DNA of 42,519 bases from an uncultured Bacilli bacterium (GTDB taxonomy: Bacteria; Bacillota_I; Bacilli_A; RF39; UBA660): the NCBI GenBank assembly GCA_944373095.1, contig CALWAK010000006.1, positions 1 to 42,519 on the forward strand. Direction: 5' to 3'. Under the pieces are notes generated by a model, which searched no databases, was not told the DNA's origin, and was given only the letters and a program-made list of their open reading frames with translations. The translations under genes and the position numbers were made by a program. Shown here piece after piece: positions 5,196 to 25,832 of this stretch; the first letter of the stretch is position 1, and the number at the start of each line of letters is the position of its first letter.

Positions 5196-5200
5196 ATAAA

Positions 5201-5277
<77 letters not shown>

Positions 5278-5297
5278 AATCGCTGCTGACTACTTAA

Positions 5298-5325: not shown

Positions 5326-5332
5326 GACTTTT

Positions 5333-5362
5333 TTAACATTTTTTGAAAAAAATTGCTATAAT
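5333..5362 (+). promoter_or_regulatory. Promoter of the 5383-9372 gene cluster
   Basis: TTAACA (5333-5338), 18 bases, TATAAT (5357-5362) preceded by TGC, an extended -10. The predicted start point near 5369 makes the GTG at 5371 an unlikely start codon and favours the ATG at 5383. Confidence 0.6.
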
Positions 5363-5382
5363 GTTTGTAGGTGATAGGTCTA

Positions 5383-5664
5383 ATGCAAAAAAAAGTACTA
5401 AATGATAAGGAATTTAATGAAAGTAAAACTGGTAAAGAGATAAATCAAAGATTAAAAAGAGTATTTGTAATAGGAGTACTTTGTATTTTATTTGGTTTGA
5501 TATATTTAATAACTAATATAGTTTTAAAAGAAGAATGGTATGAATATATAACACCAGTATTATTATTTATCTTTGGTCCTATATTTATATATAATTCTTT
5601 TTCTATTAGAAGATCTAGAGTTAATGAATTTAATTATTATAATAGGTATCATAATAAAAAGTAG
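5383..5664 (+). CDS. Small two-helix membrane protein, 93 aa
   Basis: The start is set at the ATG at 5383, because the GTG at 5371 would sit almost at the transcription start, whereas AGGTGAT upstream of 5383 serves as ribosome site. The protein has a charged N-terminal part, two hydrophobic segments (FVIGVLCILFGLIYLITNIV and ITPVLLFIFGPIFIYNSF) and a basic, Tyr/Asn-rich tail. I do not recognise a family. It lies 5 bases before priA and is probably co-transcribed with it. Confidence 0.6.
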   Translation: MQKKVLNDKEFNESKTGKEINQRLKRVFVIGVLCILFGLIYLITNIVLKEEWYEYITPVLLFIFGPIFIYNSFSIRRSRVNEFNYYNRYHNKK

Positions 5665-5669
5665 GCTTT

Positions 5670-7850
5670 ATGTACGCAGATGTCTTAATTGAATATACAA
5701 ATAAATCTATTGATAAAACATTTACTTATTTAATACCTAATGAATTAATTAGTATTATAAAAGTTGGAATGATAGTAAATGTAGGTTTTGGGAAAAAAAT
5801 AGTTAATGGGTTAATAATTAATATTCATGATACCTATGATAAAGATTATGATTTAAAAAGTATACTAAATATAGTAGATACTGATTTAATATTTGATAAA
5901 GAAATGTTTTCTTTAGCAACATATTTAGCTAAAGAAACTATATGCAGTAAAATGAGTGCGGTTAAATGTATGCTACCATCTAGTTTAAAATTAGGTTCAA
6001 AAAAACATGATTATAATAAATATGATACTTATATTAAATTAAATGATTCTATAGATATAACTGAATATATAAATAAGAATAAGAAATATCCTAAAAGAAT
6101 AGAACTTATAAAGTATTTAAAAGATAATACTAAAGTGTTAAAAAAAGATATTAAATCTAGTGTATTAAATACTTTAATAAAAGATAATATAATTATCTTA
6201 GAAAAAGAAAAAGTTTATAGAATAGTTCCTAATAAAGATGATAAGTATATAAAACCAATACTTACTAAAGATCAAGAAAATGCTATAAATTCTATAGAAT
6301 TAAATAAGTATAAAACTTATTTGTTACATGGAGTAACTGGATCTGGCAAAACAGAAGTATATATGGAACTAATTGATAAAGTATTACTATTAAATAAAAC
6401 GGCATTAGTTTTAATACCTGAAATATCTTTAACTACGCAAATAATTAATAGATTTTATCAAAGATTTGGTAATATTGTTGCTATATTTAATAGTGCTTTA
6501 TCAGAAGGTGAAAAATATGATGAATACCAAAAAATATATCATAATGAAATTAAAATAGTAGTAGGTACTCGTAGTGCTATTTTTACACCTTTAAAAAATA
6601 TAGGTTTAATAATTTTAGATGAAGAACATTCTGATACTTATAAACAAGAAACTAATCCTAAATATGATACTTTAGATATGGCTAAGTTTAGAGCTGAATA
6701 TAATAATGCTCCTTTAATATTAGGATCGGCAACACCATCTCTTGAATCAATGGCAAGAGCTAAAAAAGGTGTATATGCTTTAATTGAAATGCCAAATAGA
6801 GTCGGAAAATCTATATTACCTAAAATAGATATAGTAGATATGCGAAGTGAAGTATCTAAAAAAAATTATATTATAAGTGAATTATTAGATAATTTAATTA
6901 AAGAAACTCTTAGTAAGAATGAACAAATTATTTTATTATTAAATAGAAGAGGTTATTCTACTATTATTACATGTTCTAGTTGTGGCTATACATATAAATG
7001 TCCTAATTGTGATATATCCTTAACTTATCATAATACTAATAATACTTTAAGATGCCATTATTGTGGATATACAATATTTAAAAGTAGTAATTGTCCTAAG
7101 TGTCATGAAGAATCTTTAAACTATTTAGGTATAGGTACTGAAAAATTAGAAAATATTATTAAAGAAAAATATCCTAATAGTAGAGTAGTTAGAATGGATA
7201 CTGATACAACTCAAAATAAAGGGACTCATGAAAAAATAATTACTAGTTTTAGAAATTACGAATATGATATTTTAATTGGTACCCAAATGGTTAGTAAAGG
7301 ATTAGATTTTCCCTTAGTTACTTTAGTTGGTGTAATAAACTGTGATACATCCCTAAATATGCCAGATTTTAGAAGTGGAGAAAAAACTTATGCTTTATTA
7401 AGTCAAGTAGCGGGACGTGCTGGTAGAAGTGATAGATTTGGTAGAGTAGTTTTACAAACCTTTAATCCAGATAATCAGTACTTAGAATTTGTATGTAAAA
7501 ATGATTATAATTTATTTTATAACTATGAAATGCAATTTAGAAAGAAACTACAATATCCACCATATTATTATTTAGTTAGTATATTAATAACTAGTAAAGA
7601 TTATGAAAATGTTGATATAGAATCTAAAAAAATATTTAATTATTTAAAAAATAATATATCTAAATCAAGTTTAATATATGGACCAACACCATCACTAGTT
7701 TTTAAAATTAATAATATCTATCGTATGCAAATTATGATAAAATATCGTTATGACGATTTATTATATAATGTCTTAAAATATATAGATAGTATATATGCTA
7801 ATGATAGAAAAATTAATTTAGAAGTATGGTTTAATCCTAATAGAATGTGA
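5670..7850 (+). CDS. priA: Primosomal protein N' (replication restart helicase PriA)
   Basis: A 726-residue 3'-to-5' helicase that reloads the replisome at stalled forks. An N-terminal DNA-binding domain (YADVLIEYTNKSIDKTFTY) leads to Walker A GVTGSGKT (221-228), Walker B DEEH (317-320) and GSATPS. Zinc-binding cysteines follow from Cys435 (CSSCGY, CPNC, CHYCGY, CPKC), then GTQMVSKGLDF and QVAGRAGR, helicase motifs V and VI. Length is near that of other PriA proteins. Its TGA stop overlaps the GTG of the longest fmt frame. The usual neighbour def is absent here. Confidence 0.97.
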   Translation: MYADVLIEYTNKSIDKTFTYLIPNELISIIKVGMIVNVGFGKKIVNGLIINIHDTYDKDYDLKSILNIVDTDLIFDKEMFSLATYLAKETICSKMSAVKCMLPSSLKLGSKKHDYNKYDTYIKLNDSIDITEYINKNKKYPKRIELIKYLKDNTKVLKKDIKSSVLNTLIKDNIIILEKEKVYRIVPNKDDKYIKPILTKDQENAINSIELNKYKTYLLHGVTGSGKTEVYMELIDKVLLLNKTALVLIPEISLTTQIINRFYQRFGNIVAIFNSALSEGEKYDEYQKIYHNEIKIVVGTRSAIFTPLKNIGLIILDEEHSDTYKQETNPKYDTLDMAKFRAEYNNAPLILGSATPSLESMARAKKGVYALIEMPNRVGKSILPKIDIVDMRSEVSKKNYIISELLDNLIKETLSKNEQIILLLNRRGYSTIITCSSCGYTYKCPNCDISLTYHNTNNTLRCHYCGYTIFKSSNCPKCHEESLNYLGIGTEKLENIIKEKYPNSRVVRMDTDTTQNKGTHEKIITSFRNYEYDILIGTQMVSKGLDFPLVTLVGVINCDTSLNMPDFRSGEKTYALLSQVAGRAGRSDRFGRVVLQTFNPDNQYLEFVCKNDYNLFYNYEMQFRKKLQYPPYYYLVSILITSKDYENVDIESKKIFNYLKNNISKSSLIYGPTPSLVFKINNIYRMQIMIKYRYDDLLYNVLKYIDSIYANDRKINLEVWFNPNRM

Positions 7851-7858
7851 GAGATGTT

Positions 7859-8791
7859 ATGAAAGATTTAAAAGTTATATTTATGGGTACTCCAAAATTT
7901 TGTTTACCTGTATTAGATGCATTAATAAAAAATACTAATGTTATATTAGTCGTTAGTCAACCAGATAAATTGGTAGGTAGAAAAAAAGTACTAACACCAA
8001 CACCAGTTAAAAAACTAGCACTAGAAAATAATATTGAAGTATTTCAACCTAGTAAAATTAGAGAAGATTATGAAAAAATTATTTCTTTAAAACCAGATAT
8101 TATAATAACTTGTGCTTATGGTCAAATAATTCCTAAAGCTATATTAGATTGTCCTAAATATGGATGTATAAATGTTCATGCATCGCTTTTACCTTATTTA
8201 AGAGGTGGTGCTCCAATTCAACATTCGATAATAGATGGATATTTAAAAACTGGTATTACTATTATGTATATGGATGAAGCTATGGATACTGGAGATATTA
8301 TATCTAGTAGAGAATTAAGTATAAAAGATACTGATACTTATGGTATTATTCATGATGAATTAAGTAGTATTGCTAAAGATTTATTAATTGATACATTACC
8401 TAGTATTATAAATAATACGAATAGTAGAACAAAACAAGATAGTAAGTTAGCAACTTATGCTTGGAATATAAAAAGGGAAGAAGAACATATTAATTTCTTA
8501 GATAGTGGTATAAATATTGATAGATTAGTTAGAGGTTTAAACCCTAATCCTTATGCTAATACAATAATAGATAATATAGAATACAAAATAGTAAGTGGTT
8601 ATTTTGTTAAAACTACTAAAAGTATTCCAAATAAAATATGTGATATTTCTAAAAAATGTTTAGGAATAGGGTGTAATGATGGAATATATTATGTTACTTC
8701 ACTTAAACCAGCTGGAAAAAATGTTATGGATATAAAAGCTTTTTTAAATGGTATTAATATTGATGTGTTTAAAGATAAGGAAATTAAATAA
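7859..8791 (+). CDS. fmt: Methionyl-tRNA formyltransferase
   Basis: A 310-residue enzyme that formylates initiator Met-tRNA using 10-formyltetrahydrofolate. Recognisable are VIFMGTPKF at the N-terminus, the folate/catalytic block INVHASLLPYLRGGAPI, then GITIMYMDEAMDTGDI, and a C-terminal tRNA-binding domain with WNIKREEEHINF and VRGLNPNPYA. I chose the ATG at 7859 because the GTG at 7847 overlaps priA and adds residues the family lacks. GAGAG serves as ribosome site. Confidence 0.96.
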   Translation: MKDLKVIFMGTPKFCLPVLDALIKNTNVILVVSQPDKLVGRKKVLTPTPVKKLALENNIEVFQPSKIREDYEKIISLKPDIIITCAYGQIIPKAILDCPKYGCINVHASLLPYLRGGAPIQHSIIDGYLKTGITIMYMDEAMDTGDIISSRELSIKDTDTYGIIHDELSSIAKDLLIDTLPSIINNTNSRTKQDSKLATYAWNIKREEEHINFLDSGINIDRLVRGLNPNPYANTIIDNIEYKIVSGYFVKTTKSIPNKICDISKKCLGIGCNDGIYYVTSLKPAGKNVMDIKAFLNGINIDVFKDKEIK

Positions 8792-9372
8792 TGAGTGAAG
8801 ATAAATCAAAAAGTTTATTTATGTTAATAGGATGGTTAGTATTTATTATTATTTTAATTGTATTTATTAGAATAGGTTATAAAAATAATAGTAATGTTAC
8901 TATTGATCCAGGATTAAATTACATAAGATTAGAAGATGGTTTTATAGAATTAATAAGAAGTAACTATGTTTATAATTATAATATAATAGATAATAATAAT
9001 ATAATTAATTATACAGGTAGTATTAATAAAAATACTAATAATGGTATTAAAATAACTAATGATAGTACGATAAATTATTATAGTGATGGAATGAATTTTT
9101 ATAATAAGGATACTAATGAAGTAATTAATATATATGATAATTATTTAAGTTATTTTTTAGAACCTGCTAATGTATATAATTTTGTATATGAACTAAAGTA
9201 TGATACTAAAATAGATTCTAATAAAAAAGTATATATCTATAATTCTACTTATAATAATTTACCTATAGAAATTAATGTCTTTGTTAATGAAAATAATATC
9301 ACTGATATAAATTATAAGTATAATAATATAGAATATAAATGTAATTATAGTAATATAGGATTAGTAAATTAA
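8791..9372 (+). CDS. Membrane-anchored hypothetical protein, 193 aa
   Basis: The start overlaps the fmt stop (TAATG), so the genes are translationally coupled. One N-terminal membrane segment (about residues 9-28, MLIGWLVFIIILIVFIRIGY) is followed by an extracellular domain very rich in Asn, Tyr and Ile with no recognised motif. It has no lipobox, so it is a signal-anchor protein with the C-terminus outside. Function unknown. Confidence 0.65.
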   Translation: MSEDKSKSLFMLIGWLVFIIILIVFIRIGYKNNSNVTIDPGLNYIRLEDGFIELIRSNYVYNYNIIDNNNIINYTGSINKNTNNGIKITNDSTINYYSDGMNFYNKDTNEVINIYDNYLSYFLEPANVYNFVYELKYDTKIDSNKKVYIYNSTYNNLPIEINVFVNENNITDINYKYNNIEYKCNYSNIGLVN

Positions 9373-9389
9373 ATAATGTTGGGGGCTAT

Positions 9390-10139
9390 ATGGATAAGAA
9401 AAGTAAGGAAAAATTATTTGTTAATTTAATAACTGGATTAAGAGCTATTGGCGCAATAGCATTAATTCCAGTTTTTTATGCCTTAGGACCAATTATAACT
9501 GCTGAGTTTTTTTTGCTTTTTATATCAACAGATTGGATAGATGGATTTTTAGCAAGAAAATTCGGTGTATCAACTTTCTTTGGTGCTTTACTTGATGGCA
9601 TGTCAGACAAATTGTTTGGATTTATTTCACTATTTTTATTATGTAACACTATTCCTAGCATGGCAGTTGCTATTCTTTTAGAACTTTCTATTTTAGGCTT
9701 TGGAACTTATAGCGTTTTAAAAGGTAATTCGGCTAAAAGCACAATGGTTGGTAAGAGCAAAATGTGGGTATTAGCACTAGGAGTATTTATTGGTTTAATA
9801 ACTTATGATTATTCTTCTTTTATAGAGTTATGTAAAAGTTTTAATTTTCCTATTTTATCTATTGAAAAAGTAAAGACTATTCAAAAAGGTGTTAGCAGTG
9901 CTATTATAGCAAGTGAGGCTTTAACACTTGGAAGTTATGTTTTAAGAGATAAAAAAGAAAGTATTGAAAGTTTAGAAGAAAAAAGAGTTAATTTATTAAA
10001 AGAAAAAGATAGGTTATTATCTTTAAAAGATAATTTATTACCTACTAATGAATTAATTGATAAATTACTTGATACTAATTTTTATGAAAATAATAAAGAT
10101 AAGAGAGCTTTAGGATTATTTTTAAAAAAGTCTAGATAG
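9390..10139 (+). CDS. CDP-alcohol phosphatidyltransferase family protein
   Basis: A 249-residue membrane enzyme of the family that makes phosphatidylglycerol-phosphate, cardiolipin or related lipids from CDP-diacylglycerol. The diagnostic motif D-x2-DG-x2-AR-x8-G-x3-D-x3-D is complete, from DWIDGFLARKF to GALLDGMSD (about residues 47-72). Several hydrophobic segments surround it. Unlike plain PgsA it has a charged, probably coiled-coil tail of about 60 residues (KESIESLEEKRVNLLKEKDR). The substrate alcohol cannot be deduced. The leader GGGGGCTATATG is identical to that at 2453. It is followed 11 bases later by the Sel1 genes. Confidence 0.85.
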   Translation: MDKKSKEKLFVNLITGLRAIGAIALIPVFYALGPIITAEFFLLFISTDWIDGFLARKFGVSTFFGALLDGMSDKLFGFISLFLLCNTIPSMAVAILLELSILGFGTYSVLKGNSAKSTMVGKSKMWVLALGVFIGLITYDYSSFIELCKSFNFPILSIEKVKTIQKGVSSAIIASEALTLGSYVLRDKKESIESLEEKRVNLLKEKDRLLSLKDNLLPTNELIDKLLDTNFYENNKDKRALGLFLKKSR

Positions 10140-10687: not shown

Positions 10688-12307
10688 ATGGATATAATTG
10701 ATAATTATAAAAAATTAGCTTTAGAAAATGATATAGATAGTATGCTATCTTTAGGAAAGATTTATTTATTTGGTGGTGGTGTGCCTGTAAATTATAAACA
10801 GGCTAAATATTGGTACGAGAAAGCTGCTAATTTAGGTAATGCCGATGCAATGAATTCTTTAGGTTATATTTATAATTATGGTTTTGGTATATCAATAGAT
10901 TATAAGTTGGCAATTTATTGGTATGAAAAAGCTATTGAATTAGAAAATACTTTAGCAATGAATAATTTAGCTTATTTATTTTATAGTGGAAAAGGTGTAA
11001 CTTTAGATTATAAAAAAGCCAGATATTGGTATGAAAAAGCTGCTAATAGAGGCAATGTAAAAGCAATGAATAATTTGGCTAGTTTTTATTATTGTGGAAT
11101 AGGAATTGAAGCTAATTGTAAAAAAGCACTTTTTTGGTATGAAAAAGCTGCTAATTTAGGATTTACTATAGCTATGTATAATTTAGGAAATATTTATGAA
11201 ACAAATGAAACTATAAAAGATTATAAAAAGGCTTTATTCTGGTATGAAAAAGCTATTAAATTAGGAAATTATGATTCTATAGAAAGGTTAGAAGCATTAC
11301 GAAAAAAAATTAATAAAGGAACTATTTATAATAGAGATAATAATGAAATGGATAAGAATAAAATTTATAAATTAAATAAAATTATTAGTGAATGTAAAAG
11401 TAAATTTGTTAATAGAGACGATACTATTAAAATTTTAGCTAATAATATATTTCATAGTAATTTGGTTATTAATAAGCTAAAGGATAATAAAACTATAAGA
11501 AATAATATTTCTACTATTTTATTAGTTGCTTCTACAGGAAGCGGTAAAACTTCTATAATTAGTGATATTGTTTCTAAATTTGATATTCCATATATTCATA
11601 TTTCTTTAGGATGTTATACCCAAACCGGGTATAAAGGATTAGATTTACAAGATATTTTTCTTAGTTTAATAAAAGCTTCTAATGGTGATACTAAAAAAGC
11701 TATGGAAGGAATAGTAGTACTTGATGAATTTGATAAACTTAGAATTGATAGTGAAGGAGTAGTTTTGGGATTTAATAAAGGTTTACAACAAGAATTATTA
11801 TCATACTTGGAGGGGAGAAAAGTATTTTTAAAATCTGAATCTGGATCTATAATCGAATTTGATACATCTAAAATAACGTTTATTTTAGCGGGAGCTTTCC
11901 AAGATATTACTGAAAGTTATAAATATGAGGAAGTAGAAAAACAAGTTCTTAATGGTTATTTGCCAGAATTAATATCAAGAATAAATATTATTCATATAAT
12001 GCCTAAATATACTAAACAGGATTATATTGATATATTAACTAACTCAGAAATTAGTCCGTTAAAAGAATTTACTTTAGTATGTGGTATGTATAATAAATCT
12101 TTAATAATATCACCTTATGCTCCCTTTATTGATTCTATTGCAGAAGAAGCTGTTTTTTTAGATCAAGGTATGAGAGGGCTTAATAATATTTTTGCAAATA
12201 TTAGAAGTTTATTATTAGATGATCTGATAAATGGTCAAGAAGATATTTCTTTATTATCTTCTTATGAAGATTTAAAAAGAATAAAACAAAGAAAAAGAAG
12301 ATTATAG
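10688..12307 (+). CDS. Sel1 repeats fused to a ClpX-type AAA+ ATPase
   Basis: 539 residues. Residues about 14-192 hold five Sel1 repeats (AMNNLA..YYxGxG..DYKKAxxWYEKAA). A Lys/Asn-rich linker follows, then an AAA+ domain: Walker A ASTGSGKT (281-288), pore-loop-like TGYKG, Walker B VVLDEFDK (Asp346, Glu347), QQELLSYLEG, ILAGAF, PELISRI, and a sensor-2-like GMRGL (494-498). Order and spacing follow ClpX (GYVG, IDEIDK, GEGVQQALL, GAF, GARGL). The ClpX zinc-binding domain is replaced by Sel1 repeats, and the stretch after GAF is too short for the ClpP-binding IGF loop. I infer a ClpP-independent unfoldase or remodelling factor. An IS3 element begins 6 bases after the stop. Confidence 0.82.
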   Translation: MDIIDNYKKLALENDIDSMLSLGKIYLFGGGVPVNYKQAKYWYEKAANLGNADAMNSLGYIYNYGFGISIDYKLAIYWYEKAIELENTLAMNNLAYLFYSGKGVTLDYKKARYWYEKAANRGNVKAMNNLASFYYCGIGIEANCKKALFWYEKAANLGFTIAMYNLGNIYETNETIKDYKKALFWYEKAIKLGNYDSIERLEALRKKINKGTIYNRDNNEMDKNKIYKLNKIISECKSKFVNRDDTIKILANNIFHSNLVINKLKDNKTIRNNISTILLVASTGSGKTSIISDIVSKFDIPYIHISLGCYTQTGYKGLDLQDIFLSLIKASNGDTKKAMEGIVVLDEFDKLRIDSEGVVLGFNKGLQQELLSYLEGRKVFLKSESGSIIEFDTSKITFILAGAFQDITESYKYEEVEKQVLNGYLPELISRINIIHIMPKYTKQDYIDILTNSEISPLKEFTLVCGMYNKSLIISPYAPFIDSIAEEAVFLDQGMRGLNNIFANIRSLLLDDLINGQEDISLLSSYEDLKRIKQRKRRL

Positions 12308-12348: not shown

Positions 12349-13158
12349 CTAATTAGAGGATTGTAACCTGTAATTTACAGGAGACAGTCCTTTTAATTTT
12401 ACTTTAATTCTTTCATTATTATAATAATTGATATATTCATCTATTGCAATAATTAATTCATCAATATTTTTATATTTATCTTCCTGATCATAAAACATTT
12501 CTGTTTTAAGTATCCCAAAAAAGTTTTCCATCATACCATTATCCATACTATTTCCCTTTCTGGACATACTTTGTTTAATACCGTGATTTTTTAATTTTTG
12601 TTGATAAGATTGATGTTGGTATTGCCATCCTTGATCTGAATGTAATATTAACCCGTCTAAACTTTTATTTTTAAATCCTTTACTGAGCATATCATTTATT
12701 TGTTCTAAATTAGGAGATTTAGAAGTGTTATAAGATATTACTTCACCATTATATCCATCTAATATGGGTGATAAATAAATTTTTTCTCCTCGAAGATTAA
12801 ACTCGGTTACATCAGTATAACATTTTTGGTTTGGTTTATCTGCATAGAATTCACGATTAATATAGTTATCAGCTATTTTACCAACAGTCCCTTTGTATGA
12901 AGAATATTTTCTTTTATTTCTTTTTAATGGCTTGAGTCCTAGCTTAACCATTATTCTATATACCTTTTTATGATTTACTTCATAGCCTTGATTTCTAAGT
13001 TCTAAAGTGATTCTACGATAACCATATCTTTTCTTATGATGTAGAAAAATTTCTTTTATTTTATTAATTATTTGTTCATTTTTATTATCTTTATCAGTTT
13101 TCGATAATGTATAGTAAAAGGTTGATTTAGCTAATCCTGATATTTTTAGAAGAATCAT
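12349..13158 (-). CDS. IS3-family transposase OrfB (DDE integrase)
   Basis: 269 residues from the ATG, but probably made as an OrfAB fusion. An HTH_21 region (KKRYGYRRITLELRNQGY) is followed by the rve catalytic core with the DDE triad: Asp in CYTDVTEF, Asp in LILHSDQGWQY, Glu in MMENFFGILKTEMFYD. The frame stays open upstream of the ATG to the end of orfA (KVSVVSELQLKYNLMILL), which is typical IS3 OrfB N-terminal sequence. It appears intact. Confidence 0.93.
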   Translation of the reverse strand: MILLKISGLAKSTFYYTLSKTDKDNKNEQIINKIKEIFLHHKKRYGYRRITLELRNQGYEVNHKKVYRIMVKLGLKPLKRNKRKYSSYKGTVGKIADNYINREFYADKPNQKCYTDVTEFNLRGEKIYLSPILDGYNGEVISYNTSKSPNLEQINDMLSKGFKNKSLDGLILHSDQGWQYQHQSYQQKLKNHGIKQSMSRKGNSMDNGMMENFFGILKTEMFYDQEDKYKNIDELIIAIDEYINYYNNERIKVKLKGLSPVNYRLQSSN

Positions 13159-13193
13159 TAAATTATATTTTAGCTGAAGTTCACTTACAACAC

Positions 13194-13700
13194 TTACTTT
13201 TTCTTCTGTTGTTGATTCTTCCTTGCTTGAACTACGGCTCTCAATTTTTTTGAGTATTCTAGCTCCGCTTTCAAATATAAATTTTCTTGTTCTAATCTTT
13301 TTATCTTCTCGTCTTTAGTTTCATTTTTCTTTTCTTTAGTAACTTTTGGCATAATTGACCGACCTCGCTTTCGTTCTACTATATTATAACTGTTTTCTTT
13401 ATATTTTTTAACCCATTCAGATAACATTCCATGACTAGGTAATCCTTCATCTATAGCAACTGAAGTAATACTTTCTCCATTAATTAGTATTCTTTTTATT
13501 ATTTGTTCTTTCTGATAAGGTGGATAATATTTATTTCTATTTTTTCTTAGAATATCATATCCATGTTTTTCTATTATTCTATATATGTAATCAATTATTG
13601 AAATACTAACATCATATTCTTTTGCTAAAGCTATTTTAGTAGATCCTTGTTTTTTCTTTTTATGTATTTCAATTTTATCTTCATAACTTAATTTTGACAT
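13194..13700 (-). CDS. IS3-family transposase OrfA
   Basis: 168 residues with two helix-turn-helix segments (KIALAKEYDVSISIIDYIYR; SITSVAIDEGLPSHGMLSEWV) and a C-terminal leucine-zipper-like coiled coil (IKRLEQENLYLKAELEYSKKL), as in IS150-type OrfA. It binds the ends and pairs with OrfB. It ends in GAAAAAG followed by TAA. Confidence 0.92.
   Translation of the reverse strand: MSKLSYEDKIEIHKKKKQGSTKIALAKEYDVSISIIDYIYRIIEKHGYDILRKNRNKYYPPYQKEQIIKRILINGESITSVAIDEGLPSHGMLSEWVKKYKENSYNIVERKRGRSIMPKVTKEKKNETKDEKIKRLEQENLYLKAELEYSKKLRAVVQARKNQQQKKK
13196..13203 (-). promoter_or_regulatory. Probable -1 frameshift site joining OrfA to OrfB
   Basis: On the minus strand the last orfA codons read AAG AAA AAG TAA. 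A slip of one base back on GAAAAAG enters the orfB frame, which is open from here. The run is shorter than the A-AAA-AAG of many IS3 elements, so efficiency may be modest. Confidence 0.6.
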
Positions 13701-16797: not shown

Positions 16798-17034
16798 ATG
16801 GAAAGAAAAGTTGGCCGTGTTATTGAAGTGTTTATACCAGAAGAAGATAGTTTAGATGATATGAATATTGGTTTTAAAGTATTAGTTGATGATGGGGTTA
16901 TAGAAATTATTGAAGAACAAAATGAATCTAATATTAACATTTTAAAAGATGATTTAGTATTAATAACAAAACAAGTTATATCTAATAAAGAATTTATTGA
17001 TATTGAATTATATGATGGTGATTTATATGAATAG
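16798..17034 (+). CDS. Small acidic protein of helicase module, copy 1 (78 aa)
   Basis: A 78-residue, acidic, mostly beta-strand-looking protein (MERKVGRVIEVFIPEED; GFKVLVDDGVIEIIEEQ; DDLVLITKQVI). I do not recognise a family. It is 74/78 identical to the copy at 19913. Its last 8 bases overlap the helicase ATG (ATGAATAG), exactly as in copy 2, so production of the two proteins is coupled and a physical partnership is likely. An AAAGGG ribosome site precedes it. Confidence 0.8.
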   Translation: MERKVGRVIEVFIPEEDSLDDMNIGFKVLVDDGVIEIIEEQNESNINILKDDLVLITKQVISNKEFIDIELYDGDLYE

Positions 17035-19849
17035 GGATTATTCTAAAATAGGTTTATATCCACATAATATTGATGGATATGAAAAAGTTATTGAAGCTTA
17101 TAAAAATAACTCAATTGTCTCAGTTATTCGCGCTACTGGTACTGGTAAAACATATATTGGGCTACAATTTGCCTTAGATAATAATGATAAAAAAACAATG
17201 TATTTTGTACCTAGTTATGCGATTACCGAACACATAACAAGTGTAATAAATGATAATCCTAACTTAAATTTAACAAGGGATTTTCCTAATTTAGATTTAA
17301 GAGTTTATCAAAGCTTAATAAATATGTCTTATGAAGAGATTAAAAACCTAGATATTGATATTTTAGTTCTTGATGAGTTTCATCATCTTGGGGCACCAGT
17401 ATGGGGAGCAAGAATTAAAACATTAATTGAAACTCATCCTAATATTAAAGTATTTGGAATGACTGCTTATACAGTAAGAGATCGAAATACTCCTTATGAA
17501 AGAGATATGATAAATCCATATACTAATGAATTATTTTCTAATACCGATGTTAGTCATTATGATATTTGTGATGGGATGATTGACCGTGTTTTGCCGACAG
17601 TAATATATCGTAGTGCTTATCTTGTAAATGAGTCATATCAAAAGATTGAAGAAGAAGCAAAAAATCTAGATCCTACACTTCCTGAAGATAAAAAATTATT
17701 AGAGTTAATAAAAAATGCAAAAAGACTAATTCAAAATGCCCCAAGTATTGTAGATGTTATAAAACAAAATATAATCCCAAATGGTAAGTATATTTATTTT
17801 TGTCCACCAAAATCTAAAGATGGTAAAAATGATATCGATACGATAATGCAAGAAGCCAAAGAATGGTTTTTAGCCATGGGCTTAAAAGAAGAAGACATCA
17901 TATTTTATAAAACAACTAGTAAAATGCGTAAGTTAGGAAAGCAAAATCGTGATGCATTTTATTATGATGTTGACTTAGAAGGTAATTCGGTATCAAATAA
18001 ATTAAGAGTTATGTTTGCTATAAATCAATATAATGAAGGAGTACATGCACCTAATGTTAATGGCGTAATAATGGGAAGATATACATCTTCAGATATAGTC
18101 TATTTTGAAGAATTAGGAAGAGCATTATCGGTTAAAGGAGATACTTTAAAAAAATATGAAGAATATCAAAAATATTCCTTAGAAGAATTATTAGACTTAT
18201 GTAAGCAACGAAAAATATACGTTGAAGATAATATAACAAAAGAAAAAATAATAAATAAATTATTATCGCCAGTAGTAATCGATTTAGTTAATAACATTGG
18301 TTTTATAAAAGAGTTAGAAAATAATTTAAAGGATCGAATTAAAGAAATATCTAAAAAAACTAGTAATCATCGTAATAACACATTAACATTAAAAGAAACA
18401 TATTTTGATATTGTCATACAAAATGAAGAATTATTTACAGTATTAAAAGATTTATCTCAAAGATTAGCAAATTCTTGGGATAAAATGTATGAATATGCCA
18501 AGATATATTATGAACATTATGGTAACTTAGAAGTTCCTCAAGTATTTAAAACGAATAATGGTTATGACTATGATGAGAATGGCAAAGTGAATTTAGGTGC
18601 ATGGATAGCTCGTCAAAGAATAAGAATTTCCCCAACCAGCGAACGTGCACAAAAATTGTTGACGATAGGTATGCGTTTTGAAAATAAATTTTTAACGTGG
18701 GACGAAATGTATGAATATGCCAAGATATATTATGAACATCATGGAAATTTAGAAGTACCTCAAAAATTTAAAACGAATAATGGTTATGAATATGATGTGA
18801 ATGGTAAAATAAATTTAGGAAGTTGGATAGATACTCAAAGGCGAAAAATTGCCCCATCAAGTGAACGCGGTCAAAAGTTATTGGCAATTGGTATGCGTTT
18901 TAAAAATAAATTTTTAACTTGGGATGAAATGTATGAATTGGCGAAGATATATTATGAACATCATGGAAATTTAGAAGTACCTCAAAAATTTAAAACGAAT
19001 AATGGTTATGATTATGATGTAAATGGTAAAGTGAATTTAGGAACTTGGATAAATAATCAAAGATTTAAGGTAGATCCATCAAGTGAACGAGGCCAAAAAT
19101 TATTAGCAATAGGTATGCGTTTTGAAAATATAAGAAGTACATTAACATGGGATGAAATGTATGAATTGGCGAAGATATATTATGAGAAACATGGTAATTT
19201 AGAAGTCCCTTATAGTTTTAAAACGAATAATGGTTACGACTATAATGCTTTCGGTAAAGTGAATTTAGGCAAATGGATAGTTAGTCAAAGATTTAAGGTA
19301 GATCCAACAAGTGAACGAGGCCAAAAATTATTAGCAATAGGTATGCGTTTTGAAAATTTAAGAAGCACATTAACATGGGATGAAATGTATGAGTATGCCG
19401 AGATATATTATGCACATCATCATAATTTAGAGGTTCCAATAAGATTTAAAACGAATAATGGGTATGAATATGATGTGAATGGTAAAGTAAATTTAGGAAA
19501 GTGGATATCAAAACAAAGAACTGCTATTGACCCAACCAGTGAACGAGGCCAAAAATTAATTAAAATTGGTATGGTTTTTAGTGTAAAGAAAAATAAAGAA
19601 GATGTTAAGATATTTTGCTTAGAAAATAATATTGATTTAGAGAAAAACAAAATTACTTTAAAACATATATCAATTCAAGAACTTATTGCTAAGACTAGGT
19701 ATTTAGAAGAACAAAATATAGATATAGTAGATGCAAATGGCTTATTACATGAAATATATAGTATGAGTAATGTTAATATGCAAGTTAAATATAATATAAG
19801 TTTAGAAGAATTAATAGATAAATACTATTTAACTTATAGTAGAAAGTAA
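17027..19849 (+). CDS. DEAD/ResIII-type helicase with five helicase-associated repeats, copy 1
   Basis: 940 residues from the ATG at 17027, chosen because it matches copy 2 and overlaps the small gene by 8 bases; the frame itself opens at 16997. The superfamily 2 motor has ATGTGKT (36-42), DEFHH (116-120), GMTAYT and a motif V/VI region INQYNEGVHAPN...YFEELGRAL. A SAP-like segment (SLEELLDLCKQRKIYVEDN) follows, then five repeats of about 71-74 residues of the helicase-associated (HA, PF03457-like) type: WDEMYEYAKIYYEHHGNLEVP...NLGxWIxxQRxx[IV]xPxSERGQKLLAIGMRF. The C-terminal 90 residues are shared only with copy 2. Nucleic-acid translocation is likely; target unknown. Confidence 0.88.
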   Translation: MNRDYSKIGLYPHNIDGYEKVIEAYKNNSIVSVIRATGTGKTYIGLQFALDNNDKKTMYFVPSYAITEHITSVINDNPNLNLTRDFPNLDLRVYQSLINMSYEEIKNLDIDILVLDEFHHLGAPVWGARIKTLIETHPNIKVFGMTAYTVRDRNTPYERDMINPYTNELFSNTDVSHYDICDGMIDRVLPTVIYRSAYLVNESYQKIEEEAKNLDPTLPEDKKLLELIKNAKRLIQNAPSIVDVIKQNIIPNGKYIYFCPPKSKDGKNDIDTIMQEAKEWFLAMGLKEEDIIFYKTTSKMRKLGKQNRDAFYYDVDLEGNSVSNKLRVMFAINQYNEGVHAPNVNGVIMGRYTSSDIVYFEELGRALSVKGDTLKKYEEYQKYSLEELLDLCKQRKIYVEDNITKEKIINKLLSPVVIDLVNNIGFIKELENNLKDRIKEISKKTSNHRNNTLTLKETYFDIVIQNEELFTVLKDLSQRLANSWDKMYEYAKIYYEHYGNLEVPQVFKTNNGYDYDENGKVNLGAWIARQRIRISPTSERAQKLLTIGMRFENKFLTWDEMYEYAKIYYEHHGNLEVPQKFKTNNGYEYDVNGKINLGSWIDTQRRKIAPSSERGQKLLAIGMRFKNKFLTWDEMYELAKIYYEHHGNLEVPQKFKTNNGYDYDVNGKVNLGTWINNQRFKVDPSSERGQKLLAIGMRFENIRSTLTWDEMYELAKIYYEKHGNLEVPYSFKTNNGYDYNAFGKVNLGKWIVSQRFKVDPTSERGQKLLAIGMRFENLRSTLTWDEMYEYAEIYYAHHHNLEVPIRFKTNNGYEYDVNGKVNLGKWISKQRTAIDPTSERGQKLIKIGMVFSVKKNKEDVKIFCLENNIDLEKNKITLKHISIQELIAKTRYLEEQNIDIVDANGLLHEIYSMSNVNMQVKYNISLEELIDKYYLTYSRK
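18476..19579 (+). repeat. HA-domain repeat array in helicase 1 (5 units)
   Basis: Five units of about 213-222 bases, each starting at the codon for Trp in WDxMYE. Units share the FKTNNGY and NLGxWI blocks and differ mainly next to WI and QR. Confidence 0.9.
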
Positions 19850-19864
19850 GCATATATATTATAA

Positions 19865-19893
19865 TTGCTATTAAGGTATATAACATTTATAAT
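19865..19893 (+). promoter_or_regulatory. Promoter of helicase module 2
   Basis: TTGCTA (19865-19870), 17 bases, TATAAT (19888-19893), 19 bases before the ATG at 19913. Confidence 0.6.
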
Positions 19894-19912
19894 TATGTTA
19901 AAGGTGGTTATT

Positions 19913-20149
19913 ATGGAAAGAAAAGTTGGACGTGTGATTGAAGTATTTATACCAGAAGAAGATAATCTAAATGATATGAATATAGGTTTTAAAGTGTTAG
20001 TTGATGATGACGTAATAGAAATTATTGAGGAACAAAATGAATCTAATATTAATATTTTAAAGGATGACTTAGTATTAATTACTAAACAAGTAATATCTAA
20101 TAAAGAATTTATTGATATAGAATTATATGATGGTGATTTAAATGAATAG
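19913..20149 (+). CDS. Small acidic protein of helicase module, copy 2 (78 aa)
   Basis: Start set at the ATG at 19913 with AAAGGTGG upstream. The frame opens at 19865, but those residues overlap the promoter and have no counterpart in copy 1. It differs from copy 1 at four residues only (S/N, D/N, G/D, Y/N). Strong conservation beside a more divergent helicase repeat array suggests the protein contacts the conserved motor rather than the repeats; that is inference. Confidence 0.8.
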   Translation: MERKVGRVIEVFIPEEDNLNDMNIGFKVLVDDDVIEIIEEQNESNINILKDDLVLITKQVISNKEFIDIELYDGDLNE

Positions 20150-22970
20150 GGATTATTCTAAAATAGGTCTATATCCGCATAATATTGATGGATATGAAAA
20201 AGTTATTGAAGCTTATAAAAATAACTCTGTTGTTTCAGTTATTCGTGCTACTGGTACTGGTAAAACATATATTGGCTTACAATTAGCCTTAGATAATAAT
20301 GATAAAAAAACAATGTACTTTGTACCTAGTTATGCGATTATCGAACACTTAACAAGCACAATAACTAATAACCCTAACTTGGATTTAAAAAAAGATTTTT
20401 CTAATCTAGATTTAAGAGTGTATCAAAGTTTAGTAAATATGTCTTATGATGAGATTAAAAACTTAGATGTTGATATTTTAGTTCTTGATGAGTTTCATCA
20501 TCTTGGGGCTCCAGTGTGGGGAGCAAGAATTAAAATATTAATTGAAACACATCCAAATATTAAAATATTTGGAATGACTGCATACACAGTAAGAGATCGA
20601 AATACCCCTTATGAAAGAGATATGATAAATCCATATACTAATGAGTTGTTTTCTAATACCGATGTTAGTCATTATGATATTTGTGATGGGATGATTGATC
20701 GAGTATTACCATTACTAATATATCGAAGTGCTTATCTTGTAAATGAGTTATATCAAAAACTCGAAGAAGATGCTAAAGATCTTGATCCTGCACTTCCTGA
20801 AGATAAAAAATTATTAGAATTAATAAAAAATTCTAAAAGATTAATTCAAAATGCACCAAGTATTGTAGATGTTATAAAGCAAAATATAATTCCAGATGGT
20901 AAATATATTTATTTTTGTCCACCAAAATCCAAAGATGGTAAAAATGATATCGATACAATAATGGAAGAAGCCAAAAAATGGTTTTTAGCCATAGGTTTAA
21001 AAGACGAAGATATAATATTTTATAAAACAACAAGTAAAATGCGTAAGTTAGGAAAACAAAATCGTGATGCATTTTATTATGATCTCGACTTAGAAGGTAA
21101 TTCAGTATCAAATAAATTAAGAGTTATGTTTGCTATAAATCAGTATAACGAAGGAGTACATGCCCCAAATGTTAATGGAGTAATAATGGGGAGGTATACG
21201 TCTTCGGATATCGTTTATTTTGAAGAATTAGGAAGAGCTTTATCGGTTAAAGGTGATACTTTAAAAAAATATGAAGAATATCAAAAATATTCTTTAAAAG
21301 AATTGTTAGATTTATGTAGGCAACGAAACATATATGTTGAAGATAATATAACAAAAGAAGCATTAATAAATAAATTATTATCGCCAGTGGTAATCGATTT
21401 AGTTAATAATATTGGCTATATAAAAGAGTTAGAAAATAATCTAAAGGATAGAATTAGAGAAATATCTAAAAAAACTAGTAATCATCGTAATAATGCGTTA
21501 ACATTAAAAGAAACATATTTTGATATTGTCATACAAAATGAAGATTTATTTACAGTATTAAGAGATTTATCTCAAAGATTAGCAAATTCCTGGGATAAAA
21601 TGTATGAATATTCCAAAATATATTATGAATATCACCATAATTTAGAAGTTCCTCAAGGTTTTAAAACGAATAATGGATATGATTATGACGAGAATGGAAA
21701 AATAAATTTAGGAATTTGGATACGTAATCAAAGGTATAAAGTTGCTCCAACAAGTGAACGAGGCCAAAAATTGTTAGCCATAGGTATGCGTTTTGAAAAT
21801 AAAATTAATGCATTAACCTGGGATGAAATGTATGAATTGGCAAAAAAATATTATGAGCACCATGGTAATTTAGAAGTTCCTCGAAAATTTAAAACGAATA
21901 ATGGATATGAATATGACGAAAATGGAAAAATAAATTTAGGCCAATGGATAAATACTCAAAGATATAAAGTTGCCCCAACAAGTGAACGAGGTCAGAAATT
22001 GATGGCAATAGGTATGTGTTTTGAAAAGAAATTTTTAACGTGGGACGAAATGTATGAATATGCCAAGATATATTATGAACACCAAGGAAATTTAGAAGTT
22101 CCTCAAGGGTTTAAAACGAATAATGGTTATGATTATGATGCAAATGGTAAAGTAAATTTAGGTACTTGGATAGCAAACCAGAGACAAAACATTGACCCAA
22201 CAAGTAAACGAGGCCAAAAATTGTTAGCAATAGGTATGCGTTTTAAAAATAAAATTAGTGCATTAACCTGGGATGAAATATATGAATTGGCCAAGTTATA
22301 TTATGAACATCATGGCGATTTAGAAGTTCCTTATAGTTTTAAAACGAATAATGGGTACGACTATAATGCTTCTGGTAAAGTGAATTTAGGCCAATGGATA
22401 GTTCGTCAAAGATTTAATGTAGATCCAACAAGCGATCATGGTCAAAAGTTGTTAGCAATTGGTATGCGTTTTGAAATTATAAGAAGTAAAAGACCATGGG
22501 ATGAAATGTATAAGTATGCCAAGATATATTATGCACATCATCAAAATTTAGAGGTACCAATAAGATTTAAAACCAATAATGGTTACGAATATGATGAGAA
22601 TGGAAAGGTAAATTTAGGAACTTGGATAAATCATCAAAGACAAGACGTTGATCCAACAAGTGAGCATGGTCAAAAATTAATTAAAATTGGTATGATTTTT
22701 AGTGTAAGAAAAAATAAGGAAGATGTTAAAATATTTTGTTTAGAAAATTATATTGATTTAGAGAAAAATAAAATTACTTTAAACCATATATCTATTCAAG
22801 AACTTATTGCTAAGACTAGGTATTTAGAAGAACAAAATATAGATATAGTAGATGCAAATGGTTTACTACATGAAATATATGGTATGAGTAATGTTAATAT
22901 GCAAGTTAAATATAATATAAGTTTAGAAGAATTAATAGATAAGTATTATTTGACTTATAGTAGAAAGTAA
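20142..22970 (+). CDS. DEAD/ResIII-type helicase with five helicase-associated repeats, copy 2
   Basis: 942 residues, the same architecture as copy 1: motor with ATGTGKT, DEFHH, GMTAYT and ELGRAL, a SAP-like segment, five HA repeats, and a nearly identical C-terminal 90 residues (QELIAKTRYLEEQNIDIVDA). The motor halves of the two copies are close to identical, while the repeats differ at defined positions (after WI: RN, NT, AN, VR, NH; after QR: YK, YK, QN, FN, QD). The start overlaps the small gene by 8 bases. A restriction- or defence-type role is possible but unproven; no nuclease or methylase is adjacent. Confidence 0.88.
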   Translation: MNRDYSKIGLYPHNIDGYEKVIEAYKNNSVVSVIRATGTGKTYIGLQLALDNNDKKTMYFVPSYAIIEHLTSTITNNPNLDLKKDFSNLDLRVYQSLVNMSYDEIKNLDVDILVLDEFHHLGAPVWGARIKILIETHPNIKIFGMTAYTVRDRNTPYERDMINPYTNELFSNTDVSHYDICDGMIDRVLPLLIYRSAYLVNELYQKLEEDAKDLDPALPEDKKLLELIKNSKRLIQNAPSIVDVIKQNIIPDGKYIYFCPPKSKDGKNDIDTIMEEAKKWFLAIGLKDEDIIFYKTTSKMRKLGKQNRDAFYYDLDLEGNSVSNKLRVMFAINQYNEGVHAPNVNGVIMGRYTSSDIVYFEELGRALSVKGDTLKKYEEYQKYSLKELLDLCRQRNIYVEDNITKEALINKLLSPVVIDLVNNIGYIKELENNLKDRIREISKKTSNHRNNALTLKETYFDIVIQNEDLFTVLRDLSQRLANSWDKMYEYSKIYYEYHHNLEVPQGFKTNNGYDYDENGKINLGIWIRNQRYKVAPTSERGQKLLAIGMRFENKINALTWDEMYELAKKYYEHHGNLEVPRKFKTNNGYEYDENGKINLGQWINTQRYKVAPTSERGQKLMAIGMCFEKKFLTWDEMYEYAKIYYEHQGNLEVPQGFKTNNGYDYDANGKVNLGTWIANQRQNIDPTSKRGQKLLAIGMRFKNKISALTWDEIYELAKLYYEHHGDLEVPYSFKTNNGYDYNASGKVNLGQWIVRQRFNVDPTSDHGQKLLAIGMRFEIIRSKRPWDEMYKYAKIYYAHHQNLEVPIRFKTNNGYEYDENGKVNLGTWINHQRQDVDPTSEHGQKLIKIGMIFSVRKNKEDVKIFCLENYIDLEKNKITLNHISIQELIAKTRYLEEQNIDIVDANGLLHEIYGMSNVNMQVKYNISLEELIDKYYLTYSRK
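21591..22700 (+). repeat. HA-domain repeat array in helicase 2 (5 units)
   Basis: Five units in the same register as in helicase 1. Units 4 and 5 correspond best to units 4 and 5 of copy 1 (PYSFKTNNGYDYNA and PIRFKTNNGYEYD). Confidence 0.9.
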
Positions 22971-22978: not shown

Positions 22979-23269
22979 ATGTTTTTAAATAAGTATATAA
23001 ACGAATTTTATTTAAATTTAATATATGATAATTATGAAGAAGATTTTATTAATTCTTTAGATGAAAAAAATTTTATAAAAATAAGTAATTTATTTAAAAA
23101 TAATAATTTTTATTTTATAAATGATATATACCTTAATTACTTAGAAATATTTAAATTAGATTATGAAGAAGTTTTTAATAAGTTAAAAATATTAAAGAAT
23201 AAATTAGGAAATAACTATAATTATATTATAGGTAATGATATGAGATATTTAGAATATTTACTAAAGTAA
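22979..23269 (+). CDS. Hypothetical protein, 96 aa
   Basis: ATG start 8 bases after the helicase 2 stop with GTGAT as a weak ribosome site, so it is probably the last gene of that operon. It is helical, rich in Asn, Tyr, Phe and Leu, with no membrane segment or known motif. No equivalent follows helicase 1. A terminator ends the operon directly after it. Confidence 0.6.
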   Translation: MFLNKYINEFYLNLIYDNYEEDFINSLDEKNFIKISNLFKNNNFYFINDIYLNYLEIFKLDYEEVFNKLKILKNKLGNNYNYIIGNDMRYLEYLLK

Positions 23270-23298: not shown

Positions 23299-23301
23299 CA
23301 T

Positions 23302-23330
23302 TTGCATTTAAAATATATATTTGTTATAAT
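23302..23330 (+). promoter_or_regulatory. Promoter of the RNase J-like gene
   Basis: TTGCAT (23302-23307), 17 bases, TATAAT (23325-23330). Confidence 0.65.
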
Positions 23331-23374
23331 TATCGTGCAATGAAAACTTGTATTAATATGAAAGGTGATTTATT

Positions 23375-25009
23375 ATGAGTAAAATTAAAATTATGGGGCT
23401 TGGTGGGCTTAGTGAGACCGGCAAGAATACCTATGTAATAGAAGTTGATAATTATATATATATATTTGATTGTGGACTTAAATATGCAACAGAAAATTTA
23501 TATGGAATAGATTATATAATACCTGATTTTGATTATTTAGTTAAGAATAAAAGAAGAATTAGAGGTTTATTTTTAACTCATGGTCATTATGAAAATATGG
23601 GTGCTACCAGTGATTTATTAAAGTTAATTCCTACATTAAAAGTTTATGCAACTAAATTTACGAAGTTTGTATTAGAACAAGATGGGGTAAATCCTAAAAA
23701 TATTATTGAAATTAAACCACATAAGAAGTTAAACTTTGGTGATGTTAGTATATTTCCTATTAGTGTATCTCATTCAGCACCAGATGCGGTAATGTATTGC
23801 TTAAATACTAAGGATGGGGCAATATGTTATACAGGAGATTTTATAATTGATCCTAGTATGCGTGGAGCCTATGACATGGATTTAGGTAAAATTGCTTACG
23901 TTGGAAAACAAGGAGTGTTAGCTCTTTTAAGCGAATCTACTTTTTCTGAAAGACCAGGTCATACTTCACCAAATCATCGTTTAACAAGGCATTTTAAATA
24001 TGCTGTTAATCATGCTGATGGTCGTTTAATATTTTTAGTTCTTCCAAATCATTTATATACTATTCAAGAAATATTTGATTCCTTAAGAAATACTCATCGT
24101 AAAGTAATACTTATGGGTAAACAGTTACAATCTGTTTTAGATATAGGTTTAAAAGAAGGATATTTAAATATTCAAGATGGTTTATTAGGTGATTTATCTA
24201 ATATAAATGATAAAGATTCTGTACTTATTATGGCAGATAGTAAAGAAAATCCTTATGCAGTATTATCTAAAGTACTTGGAGGATATGATAAGTTTGTAAC
24301 TTTAAAAAGTACTGATACAGTTGTATTTGCAGAACCTAGATATGATTCTAGCGAAAAAGTTTTAGTTAAATTAGAAAATGATTTAGCAGAGATGGGTTGT
24401 GAAATTGTTTCTGTTCCTAAAGATAAATGTATATTACATCATGCTTCGCAAGAAGATTTAATGTTAATGATTAAATTATTAAATCCAAAGTATTATATGC
24501 CTGTTAAAGGTGAGTATCGTTATATGGTTAATAATGCCAATATGGCAAGTGCGCTTGGAATTGATGCTAGCAATATTATCTTAAAACAAAATGGTGATAT
24601 TGTTGAAATTGATGATGGTGTATTACAAGATAAGTTTAAATCTATTAAAGTTAATGATATTTTAATAGATGGTAAAAGTAGTGAAGATGTTGGAGAACTT
24701 GTTATTAAAGATCGTGAGATGTTATCAGAAAATGGTATTGTTTTAATAAGTGCTACGATATCTAAAAAAACTAGACAGTTATTAGTAGGACCAGAAGTTA
24801 CTACTAGAGGATTTATTTATATTAAAGATTCTAAAGAGATGATTAAAGAGATTAAAAATATTTCTACTACAATAATTGAAAGAAATATTACTGAAACTTA
24901 TGTTGAATATAATAAAATAAAGACTGAAATTAGAGAAGAATTAGGTAAATATTTATATAGTGAAACTGAATGTAAACCAATGATTATTGCGGTAATTCAA
25001 GAAGTATAA
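23375..25009 (+). CDS. RNase J-family protein, J2-like (degenerate metal site)
   Basis: 544 residues with the metallo-beta-lactamase/beta-CASP layout of RNase J: GLGGLSETGKNTYVIE, LTHGH, SVSHSAPDAV, CYTGDFIIDPS, SESTFSERPGHTSP, VLPNHLYTIQEI, MPVKGEYRYM, and a C-terminal domain. The usual HxHxDH motif reads His69-Gly-His71-Tyr-Glu73-Asn74, so the Asp and last His are replaced, and the His of the PVHGE motif is Lys378. Bacillus RNase J2 also has a degenerate site and acts as partner of J1. I infer a weakly active or structural subunit. GGTGAT precedes the ATG. Confidence 0.85.
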   Translation: MSKIKIMGLGGLSETGKNTYVIEVDNYIYIFDCGLKYATENLYGIDYIIPDFDYLVKNKRRIRGLFLTHGHYENMGATSDLLKLIPTLKVYATKFTKFVLEQDGVNPKNIIEIKPHKKLNFGDVSIFPISVSHSAPDAVMYCLNTKDGAICYTGDFIIDPSMRGAYDMDLGKIAYVGKQGVLALLSESTFSERPGHTSPNHRLTRHFKYAVNHADGRLIFLVLPNHLYTIQEIFDSLRNTHRKVILMGKQLQSVLDIGLKEGYLNIQDGLLGDLSNINDKDSVLIMADSKENPYAVLSKVLGGYDKFVTLKSTDTVVFAEPRYDSSEKVLVKLENDLAEMGCEIVSVPKDKCILHHASQEDLMLMIKLLNPKYYMPVKGEYRYMVNNANMASALGIDASNIILKQNGDIVEIDDGVLQDKFKSIKVNDILIDGKSSEDVGELVIKDREMLSENGIVLISATISKKTRQLLVGPEVTTRGFIYIKDSKEMIKEIKNISTTIIERNITETYVEYNKIKTEIREELGKYLYSETECKPMIIAVIQEV

Positions 25010-25017
25010 ATATTACC

Positions 25018-25047
25018 TTGTCAAATTATAAATAATTATGGTAAAAT
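25018..25047 (+). promoter_or_regulatory. Promoter of rpmG-efp
   Basis: TTGTCA (25018-25023), 18 bases, TAAAAT (25042-25047). Confidence 0.55.
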
Positions 25048-25077
25048 ACCTAGTGTAAAAAAAAGGAGGATAGCATT

Positions 25078-25242
25078 ATGGCAAAAAATGAAAATAGAAA
25101 TTATGTTACTTTAGTATGTAGTGAATGTAAACATGAAAATTACACTACTAGTAAAAATAAGAAAAATACTCAAGAAAAATTAGGAATTAAAAAAGCATGT
25201 CCAAATTGTGGAAAACATACAATTCATAAAGAGAAAAAATAA
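25078..25242 (+). CDS. rpmG: 50S ribosomal protein L33
   Basis: A 54-residue protein of the L33 family, a component of the large ribosomal subunit near the E site. It has the zinc-ribbon form with cysteines in two pairs (VCSECK, Cys14/Cys17; CPNCGKH, Cys41/Cys44), the conserved [10 protein letters not shown] core and a basic C-terminus. AAAGGAGGA is an excellent ribosome site. It lies 18 bases upstream of efp and is probably co-transcribed. Confidence 0.95.
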
Positions 25243-25260
25243 TAGAAAGGGGGATATAAA

Positions 25261-25821
25261 ATGAATATTAACATAAATGATATTAAAAATGGTATGACTA
25301 TTATTATGGATGGAAAGTTATGCCAAATTGTAGAATTTCAACATGTTAAACCTGGTAAAGGTGCTGCATTTGTAAAAATGAAGTTAAGAAATTTAAAGAC
25401 TGGATCAATTGTAGAAGATACTTATAATACTAATATTAAAGTAGAAAAAGCTCATATTGATAAGAAACCTATGCAATATTTATATAATACTGGGGATTCT
25501 TATGTATTTATGGATACTAATACTTATGAACAAGTTGAAATACCGGAATCTAGATTAGAAGAAGAAAAGAAGTTTTTAAAGGAAAATTTAGAAATTACTA
25601 TTAATTTCTATGAAGGTGAAATAATTGGTATTGAATTACCAGAAAAGATTGAGTTTGAAATTGTAGAAACTACAGATGCAACTAAGGGTAATACTACTAA
25701 TAATGCACAAAAAGATGCTACTATTGAAACAGGTTATACTCTTAAAGTGCCTATGTTTATTTCTCAAGGAGAACATATTATTATTTCTACAAAAGATGGA
25801 AAATATTCTAGTAGAGCTTAG
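25261..25821 (+). CDS. efp: Translation elongation factor P
   Basis: 186 residues, the normal length. EF-P relieves ribosome stalling at polyproline stretches. The N-terminal KOW-like domain includes the loop KPGKGAAF, whose Lys33 is the position modified in other species; two OB domains follow, and the C-terminal TGYTLKVPMFISQGEHI...DGKYSSRA is the standard ending. No modifying enzyme gene is seen here. GAAAGGGGG precedes the ATG. Confidence 0.97.
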   Translation: MNININDIKNGMTIIMDGKLCQIVEFQHVKPGKGAAFVKMKLRNLKTGSIVEDTYNTNIKVEKAHIDKKPMQYLYNTGDSYVFMDTNTYEQVEIPESRLEEEKKFLKENLEITINFYEGEIIGIELPEKIEFEIVETTDATKGNTTNNAQKDATIETGYTLKVPMFISQGEHIIISTKDGKYSSRA

Positions 25822-25832
25822 GCTCTTTTTTT
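25813..25832 (+). terminator. Rho-independent terminator after efp
   Basis: AGAGC (25813-25817) pairs with GCTCT (25822-25826) around TTAG, followed by T7. It overlaps the efp stop. Confidence 0.75.

Follow-up and report, generated by a model that had tools for sequence, protein, structure and literature searches.

Introduction

What does a bacterium gain from two adjacent copies of a helicase that carry a row of near-identical repeats, and what do these repeats recognise? The question is raised by a stretch of 42,519 nucleotides from an uncultured Bacilli bacterium (hereafter the window), in which a unit of a small gene and a helicase gene at positions 16798-22970 is present twice in tandem. 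The window corresponds to contig C6 in a metagenome-assembled genome of 1.08 Mb, and its host is a small gut-type bacterium. The repeats belong to the HA family (PF03457). HA-domain helicases are a known but unstudied annotation, and PF03457 has so far been a name without a function; we found no papers on bacterial HA repeats in the open-access literature (subscription literature was not covered, and we make no claim to priority). Our best explanation, to which we assign a probability of roughly 55 %, is that the module encodes a sequence-targeted RadD/XPB-like DNA translocase with an OB-fold partner and a targeting array that diversifies quickly.

Results

Architecture of the module

All module genes lie on the plus strand. 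The first copy opens with S1 (16798..17034), which encodes a small acidic protein of 78 aa with a predicted minimal OB fold and overlaps by 8 bp with H1 (17027..19849), the gene for an SF2 translocase (ResIII/DEAD, RadD/XPB-like, the fold match being taken from the H2 run) of 940 aa, whose five HA repeats of 72-76 aa span 18476..19591. The second copy starts with the ATG of S2 at 19913 (19913..20149, again 78 aa and a predicted OB fold) and, after a further 8-bp overlap, continues with H2 (20142..22970), an SF2 translocase of 942 aa with five HA repeats at 21591..22712. Two adjacent units with overlaps of 8 bases had been described in the initial annotation and are confirmed by the list of open reading frames; the length of 940 residues given there for the helicases applies to H1 but not to H2.

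Pfam likewise finds the five repeats per helicase that had been counted before, with E-values of 3e-64 for H1 and 3e-58 for H2, and the scores of 213.6 and 194.5 bits against a curated cut-off of 28.4 place both helicases in PF03457. Their N-terminal regions score as ResIII with 38.5 and 40 bits (cut-off 22.5) and show the Walker A motif ATGTGKT and the DE box DEFHH, as expected for an SF2 DEAD/ResIII motor. In agreement with the earlier remark that no nuclease is visible, Pfam gives neither a nuclease nor a methyltransferase domain in the module genes, which consequently do not qualify as a Type III or Type ISP restriction system. A third module gene of 96 aa, located at 22979..23269 and matching no family in Pfam, PADLOC or NCBIfam, had been missed, as had the variable island of about 13 kb in which the module resides. 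Neither PADLOC nor NCBIfam offers a specific family for the module genes.

Seven hypervariable repeat columns

Counting the W of the repeat as column 1, variability is concentrated in columns 22 and 23 (VPxxF) as well as 42, 45, 46, 49 and 50 (xWIxxQRxx). The latter five had been named beforehand and proved real, and the two residues following 'VP', which we add here, are equally variable. To rank the columns we collected 373 HA repeats and used those 47 arrays that have four or more repeats and come from beyond the genus, found in other genera of the same family and in Ruminococcus, Aneurinibacillus, Pseudomonas and Streptomyces plasmids. By variability within these outside arrays, the top seven of 66 columns are exactly the seven of the window, and the share of variability falling on them is at least 0.15 in every listed array, compared to a uniform share of 0.106. 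The HA arrays have the outward features of a zinc-finger or TALE-like array: repeats in tandem, a scaffold that is conserved, and hypervariable positions that are few and recur at the same places.

Within the genus, pN/pS amounts to 1.08 at the seven columns versus 0.22 in the remaining ones. Acidic residues (D/E) make up 6.2 % at the seven columns versus 21.6 % in other variable columns, while N, Q, H, S and T together reach 42 % versus 27 %. With this contrast in pN/pS and the depletion of acidic residues, the seven columns look selected, more than merely relaxed. As judged from sequence statistics, column pattern and residue composition fit a surface that would face nucleic acid and are hard to explain by relaxation alone.

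Divergence of the copies and turnover of repeats

S1 and S2 share 74 of 78 residues, and H1 and H2 are identical at 826 of 940 (91 % identity in residues 1-525, 81 % in the repeat region), so that the near-identity of the copies pointed out initially is real. At the nucleotide level, the motors (residues 1-482) are separated by a dS of 0.32 and a dN of 0.04 and the small proteins by a dS of 0.49 and a dN of 0.02; given these dS values, the tandem pair is no recent assembly duplicate. Save for a handful of repeat columns, all parts show purifying selection. When repeats at the same position in H1 and H2 are compared, 22 of 35 residues are different at the seven variable columns versus 40 of 315 elsewhere (Fisher P 2e-10), and all five matched pairs differ at predicted contact residues, which is consistent with the earlier suggestion that duplication gave rise to two specificities.

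The arrays also change in length and content. Repeat number varies between five and seven, the second helicase of the sister species having seven, and repeats exchange their recognition helices: 120 nucleotides are identical in K2r4 and K2r6 before 12 of 33 helix nucleotides differ, and H2r5 and K1r1 carry a matching helix between diverged flanks. Between the two copies of the sister species, a motor tract of 1179 nt (L009:6268-7446) is identical in copies diverged elsewhere; it could reflect gene conversion or a metagenome assembly error and is not firm evidence. The relatives are mostly metagenome assemblies, and several of their contigs end within HA arrays, so these assemblies need to be treated with care. 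Degenerate copies were encountered as well. The helicase gene of G184 (L065:8271-10499) contains an in-frame stop and represents a decaying copy, and an orphan ORF of 257 aa that comprises two HA repeats and matches the C-terminal part of the helicase at 53 % identity (G000:C1:60369-61052, L066:7361-8131), is probably the relic of a further copy.

Predicted structures

All structures discussed here are predictions. In the AlphaFold2 model of H2 (13 sequences, mean pLDDT 80), every HA repeat folds into a helix, a short hairpin and two further helices, columns 40-50 forming the second helix. The five variable positions 42, 45, 46, 49 and 50 fall within a 140-degree arc of this predicted helix, as do 2.4 % of possible sets, and W43, I44, Q47 and R48 occupy its other side; a helical-moment permutation test was not significant (p 0.12). 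The proposed exposure of the variable side chains is deduced from periodicity. Positions 42, 45, 46 and 49 follow the i, i+3, i+4, i+7 spacing of the contacts made by zinc-finger recognition helices.

No relative of full-length H2 was found in the PDB by phmmer. A VIA fold search, for which residues 1-467 of H2 were taken, ranked RadD best with a Z-score of 21.4 over about 312 residues, followed by XPB/TFIIH and Mfd at about 18, with generic SF2 folds at 16-18 and RNA helicases at 16-17. In Foldseek the first ranks of the motor are taken by LlaBIII, XPB and RadD, LlaBIII being the best match.

The 78-aa protein is modelled as a five-stranded barrel (pLDDT 84). Its Foldseek matches are mostly OB folds (RPA, SSB, RecO, LEF-3), individually weak with a best E-value of 0.026, and VIA lists OB and other small barrels (eIF5A-type, PriB, SsbA, RecO) at Z 6-8 with a maximum of 8.1 (PriB and SsbA at 6-7), which is near chance level for small barrels. 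Taken together, these predictions suggest a minimal OB fold.

Partner genes

Among 186 genomes of the family the small protein occurs in ten (E < 1e-10), and it is these ten that carry a long match to the helicase, with no less than 48 % identity. A profile run over 288 genomes of the order recovered 24 small genes, each of them immediately upstream of a helicase of this subfamily. From 346 genomes sampled across the class comes one further, marginal match only (E 8.6e-4), and no convincing solitary small gene was found in the family, order and class samples. The initial annotation had called the small protein an obligate partner; this holds insofar as the small gene keeps to this helicase subfamily, but one helicase copy of the sister species lacks the small gene, and none was found at the distant HA helicases checked.

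Homologues of the 96-aa gene were detected by phmmer beside HA genes in 18 entries, both loci of the genus included. Most loci have the homologue immediately downstream of the helicase; in others it adjoins HA arrays that lack a motor. Long motorless arrays, with up to 17 repeats in one frame and spread over consecutive ORFs, were observed at L068, L140, L141 and L143.

Genomic context

The variable island occupies about 10.1-23.3 kb of the window. In the congener G175 the matches to window positions 4834-10129 and 23301-25832 are only 645 bp apart, and the module is therefore absent at this site, and in the nearest relative (CALVSW010000001.1; L009 = G041) the module adjoins pyruvate kinase, with RNase J on another contig. 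Besides the module, the island carries an IS3-type transposase (orfA/orfB, 12349-13700), an adhesin-like protein, a glycosyltransferase and an unusual protein in which Sel1 repeats are joined to an AAA ATPase domain (10688-12307). Housekeeping genes make up most of the neighbours at the module loci examined, no constant target gene adjoins the modules in these loci, and the window's module contains no sigma gene. A gene of the sigma-70 family that stands alone (regions 2 and 4) is found 16 kb downstream at 39487-40185; nothing seen here links it to the module.

Location in a defence island was also considered and is not supported by the PADLOC matches of the neighbours, as the strongest ones listed for the 47 neighbours go back to one UvrD/PcrA-like helicase. 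From the specific PADLOC protein models the module itself receives weak partial helicase matches only, the best reaching 2e-6 over 45 residues. Phage records gave one match at 23 % identity, and viral contigs one relative at 30 %. The role in defence that had been considered possible at the outset thus finds no backing in the housekeeping neighbours, in the generic PADLOC helicase matches or in a module without a nuclease.

HA arrays elsewhere and links to sigma factors

In the order sample, 65 of the 288 genomes contain PF03457, and every one belongs to the same family as the window; a phylum sample of 344 has it in no other genome. Four proteins from two other genera of this family carry an HA array fused in frame to a complete sigma-70 factor: L069 (5100-9365, 12 HA repeats), L070 (7585-10371, seven) and L074 (6528-9785, six) have sigma regions 1.2, 2, 3 and 4 by Pfam, and L090 (6314-8491, three) has its sigma part assigned by similarity. 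A related group of SF2 helicases without recognised HA repeats (L079-L086; about 890-1317 aa, 29-33 % identity) is followed immediately downstream by a gene for a sigma r2/r4-like protein of about 470-620 aa in eight of eight cases. Because sigma factors act on DNA, the simplest view of an HA array fused to them is that of an arm for DNA binding, and the fusions are the best argument for DNA over RNA as the HA ligand. Fusions and sigma-helicase pairs point to transcription at least as much as to defence.

Further afield, Ruminococcus albus pRUMAL01 has HA helicases in tandem beside a cluster for surface polysaccharide (L106:10543-17125), with no OB partner upstream. TtrA from Streptomyces telomeres, described as a putative DEAD-box helicase without mention of HA repeats (PMC8743542), may be a relative and is noted here as a lead only.

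Discussion

The initial proposal of a modular nucleic-acid-reading surface, itself a prediction, is well supported indirectly by the recurrence of the seven columns in unrelated arrays, their few acidic residues, the placement of five of them along one side of a predicted helix, and the sigma fusions. We therefore envisage a module of three genes, comprising an OB-fold protein, an SF2 translocase with its HA array and a helper of 96 aa. The array would serve as a modular DNA-binding arm, in which each repeat of about 75 residues contributes one helix (LGxWIxxQRxx), and the exposed variable residues together with the two after 'VP' would read a short sequence. In this way the array may guide the ATP-driven, RadD/XPB-like motor to selected sites, and there the motor could pump or open the DNA or strip proteins from it, the OB protein likely holding a single strand or coupling the motor. 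Tandem duplication would then provide two arrays of different specificity, and gain or loss of repeats as well as exchange of helix segments would re-tune them. The output at the target site might be the opening or clearing of promoters, in line with the sigma links, or an action on foreign DNA, in line with fast diversification and patchy presence.

These two outputs can also be read as accounts in their own right. If HA arrays address promoters and an XPB/Mfd-like motor opens or clears them for RNA polymerase, the sigma fusions would be the one-protein version of the same system; the four fusions, the sigma-like gene behind each of the eight HA-less helicases and a motor fold near XPB and Mfd all speak for this possibility, which we hold only tentatively, as the window's module is without a sigma gene, the sigma-paired helicases form a different subfamily and no constant target gene adjoins the modules. 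Somewhat less probable is defence or control of mobile DNA, with the array reading phage, plasmid or IS sequences, the motor blocking or stripping invaders and an arms race driving diversification. It would account for the rapid change of contact residues, the patchy presence in the order and shifting genomic position, the related HA helicases commonly carried by plasmids and the IS3 transposase in the same island, but it has to contend with the missing nuclease and methyltransferase, weak and generic PADLOC matches to helicases, largely housekeeping surroundings in which the strongest matches listed come down to one UvrD/PcrA-like helicase, and a single distant relative on viral contigs.

Two other readings question the ligand or the function of the array altogether. 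Many SF2 motors are RNA helicases, and RNA and proteins are also among the ligands of OB folds, so the arrays might bind RNA or protein and their variability reflect ligand diversification of another kind; with sigma-factor fusions and with the DNA translocases RadD, XPB and Mfd as closest motor folds, we regard this as unlikely. Ordinary drift, in which tandem repeats are homogenised and their relaxed surface positions have no function, does predict the pN/pS near 1 at the variable columns, yet the same seven columns recur in unrelated arrays, acidic residues are strongly depleted there and other surface columns stay conserved, which makes drift highly improbable.

Several known systems come close to the module. 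Proteins annotated as 'Helicase associated domain protein' in Streptomyces, Rhodococcus, Pseudomonas plasmids and Ruminococcus albus pRUMAL01 also combine a ResIII/DEAD motor with tandem HA repeats, and tandem pairs occur among them, but they share about 23-28 % identity with the module's helicases, have no OB partner at those checked and carry repeats that are far more diverged from one another. RadD and the XPB/TFIIH-type dsDNA translocases are close to the predicted motor fold, at about 14 % sequence identity over the motor, the HA array and OB partner being specific to the module. Type ISP and Type III restriction translocases such as LlaBIII have a similar SF2 ResIII-type motor, unlike the module in their nuclease and methyltransferase domains. 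With C2H2 zinc-finger and TALE arrays the HA arrays share near-identical tandem repeats, a fixed scaffold, few hypervariable helix or loop residues and fast repeat turnover; they differ in being unrelated in sequence, in their longer repeat of about 75 aa, in an arm mounted on an ATP-driven motor or a sigma factor, and in a code that is a candidate only. Binding to DNA has been demonstrated for STAR, MOON and pTERF, repeat proteins with hypervariable residues, compared to the predicted binding of HA arrays; the main text of the survey of DNA-binding tandem repeats that covers them does not name the HA family (PMC11417379). The following observations are new to the extent that this could be verified: the constant hypervariable face of the helix, the OB partner, the third gene and the fusions to sigma factors.

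A broader conjecture, which we put forward with caution, is that HA repeats constitute a natural, shuffling and potentially programmable code for reading dsDNA that is attached to varied effectors, a translocase with its OB protein here and sigma factors elsewhere. Provided that DNA is what the array reads, the window's two copies together with the sigma fusions of related genera offer a ready test set, in which near-identical scaffolds differ little beyond the candidate contacts. A new kind of modular repeat for DNA binding could emerge from it, along with a means to study how bacterial DNA motors or sigma factors are directed to targets that change. Should the conjecture be true, the HA code would be a bacterial counterpart of zinc-finger arrays, addressing a motor or RNA polymerase to chosen sequences.
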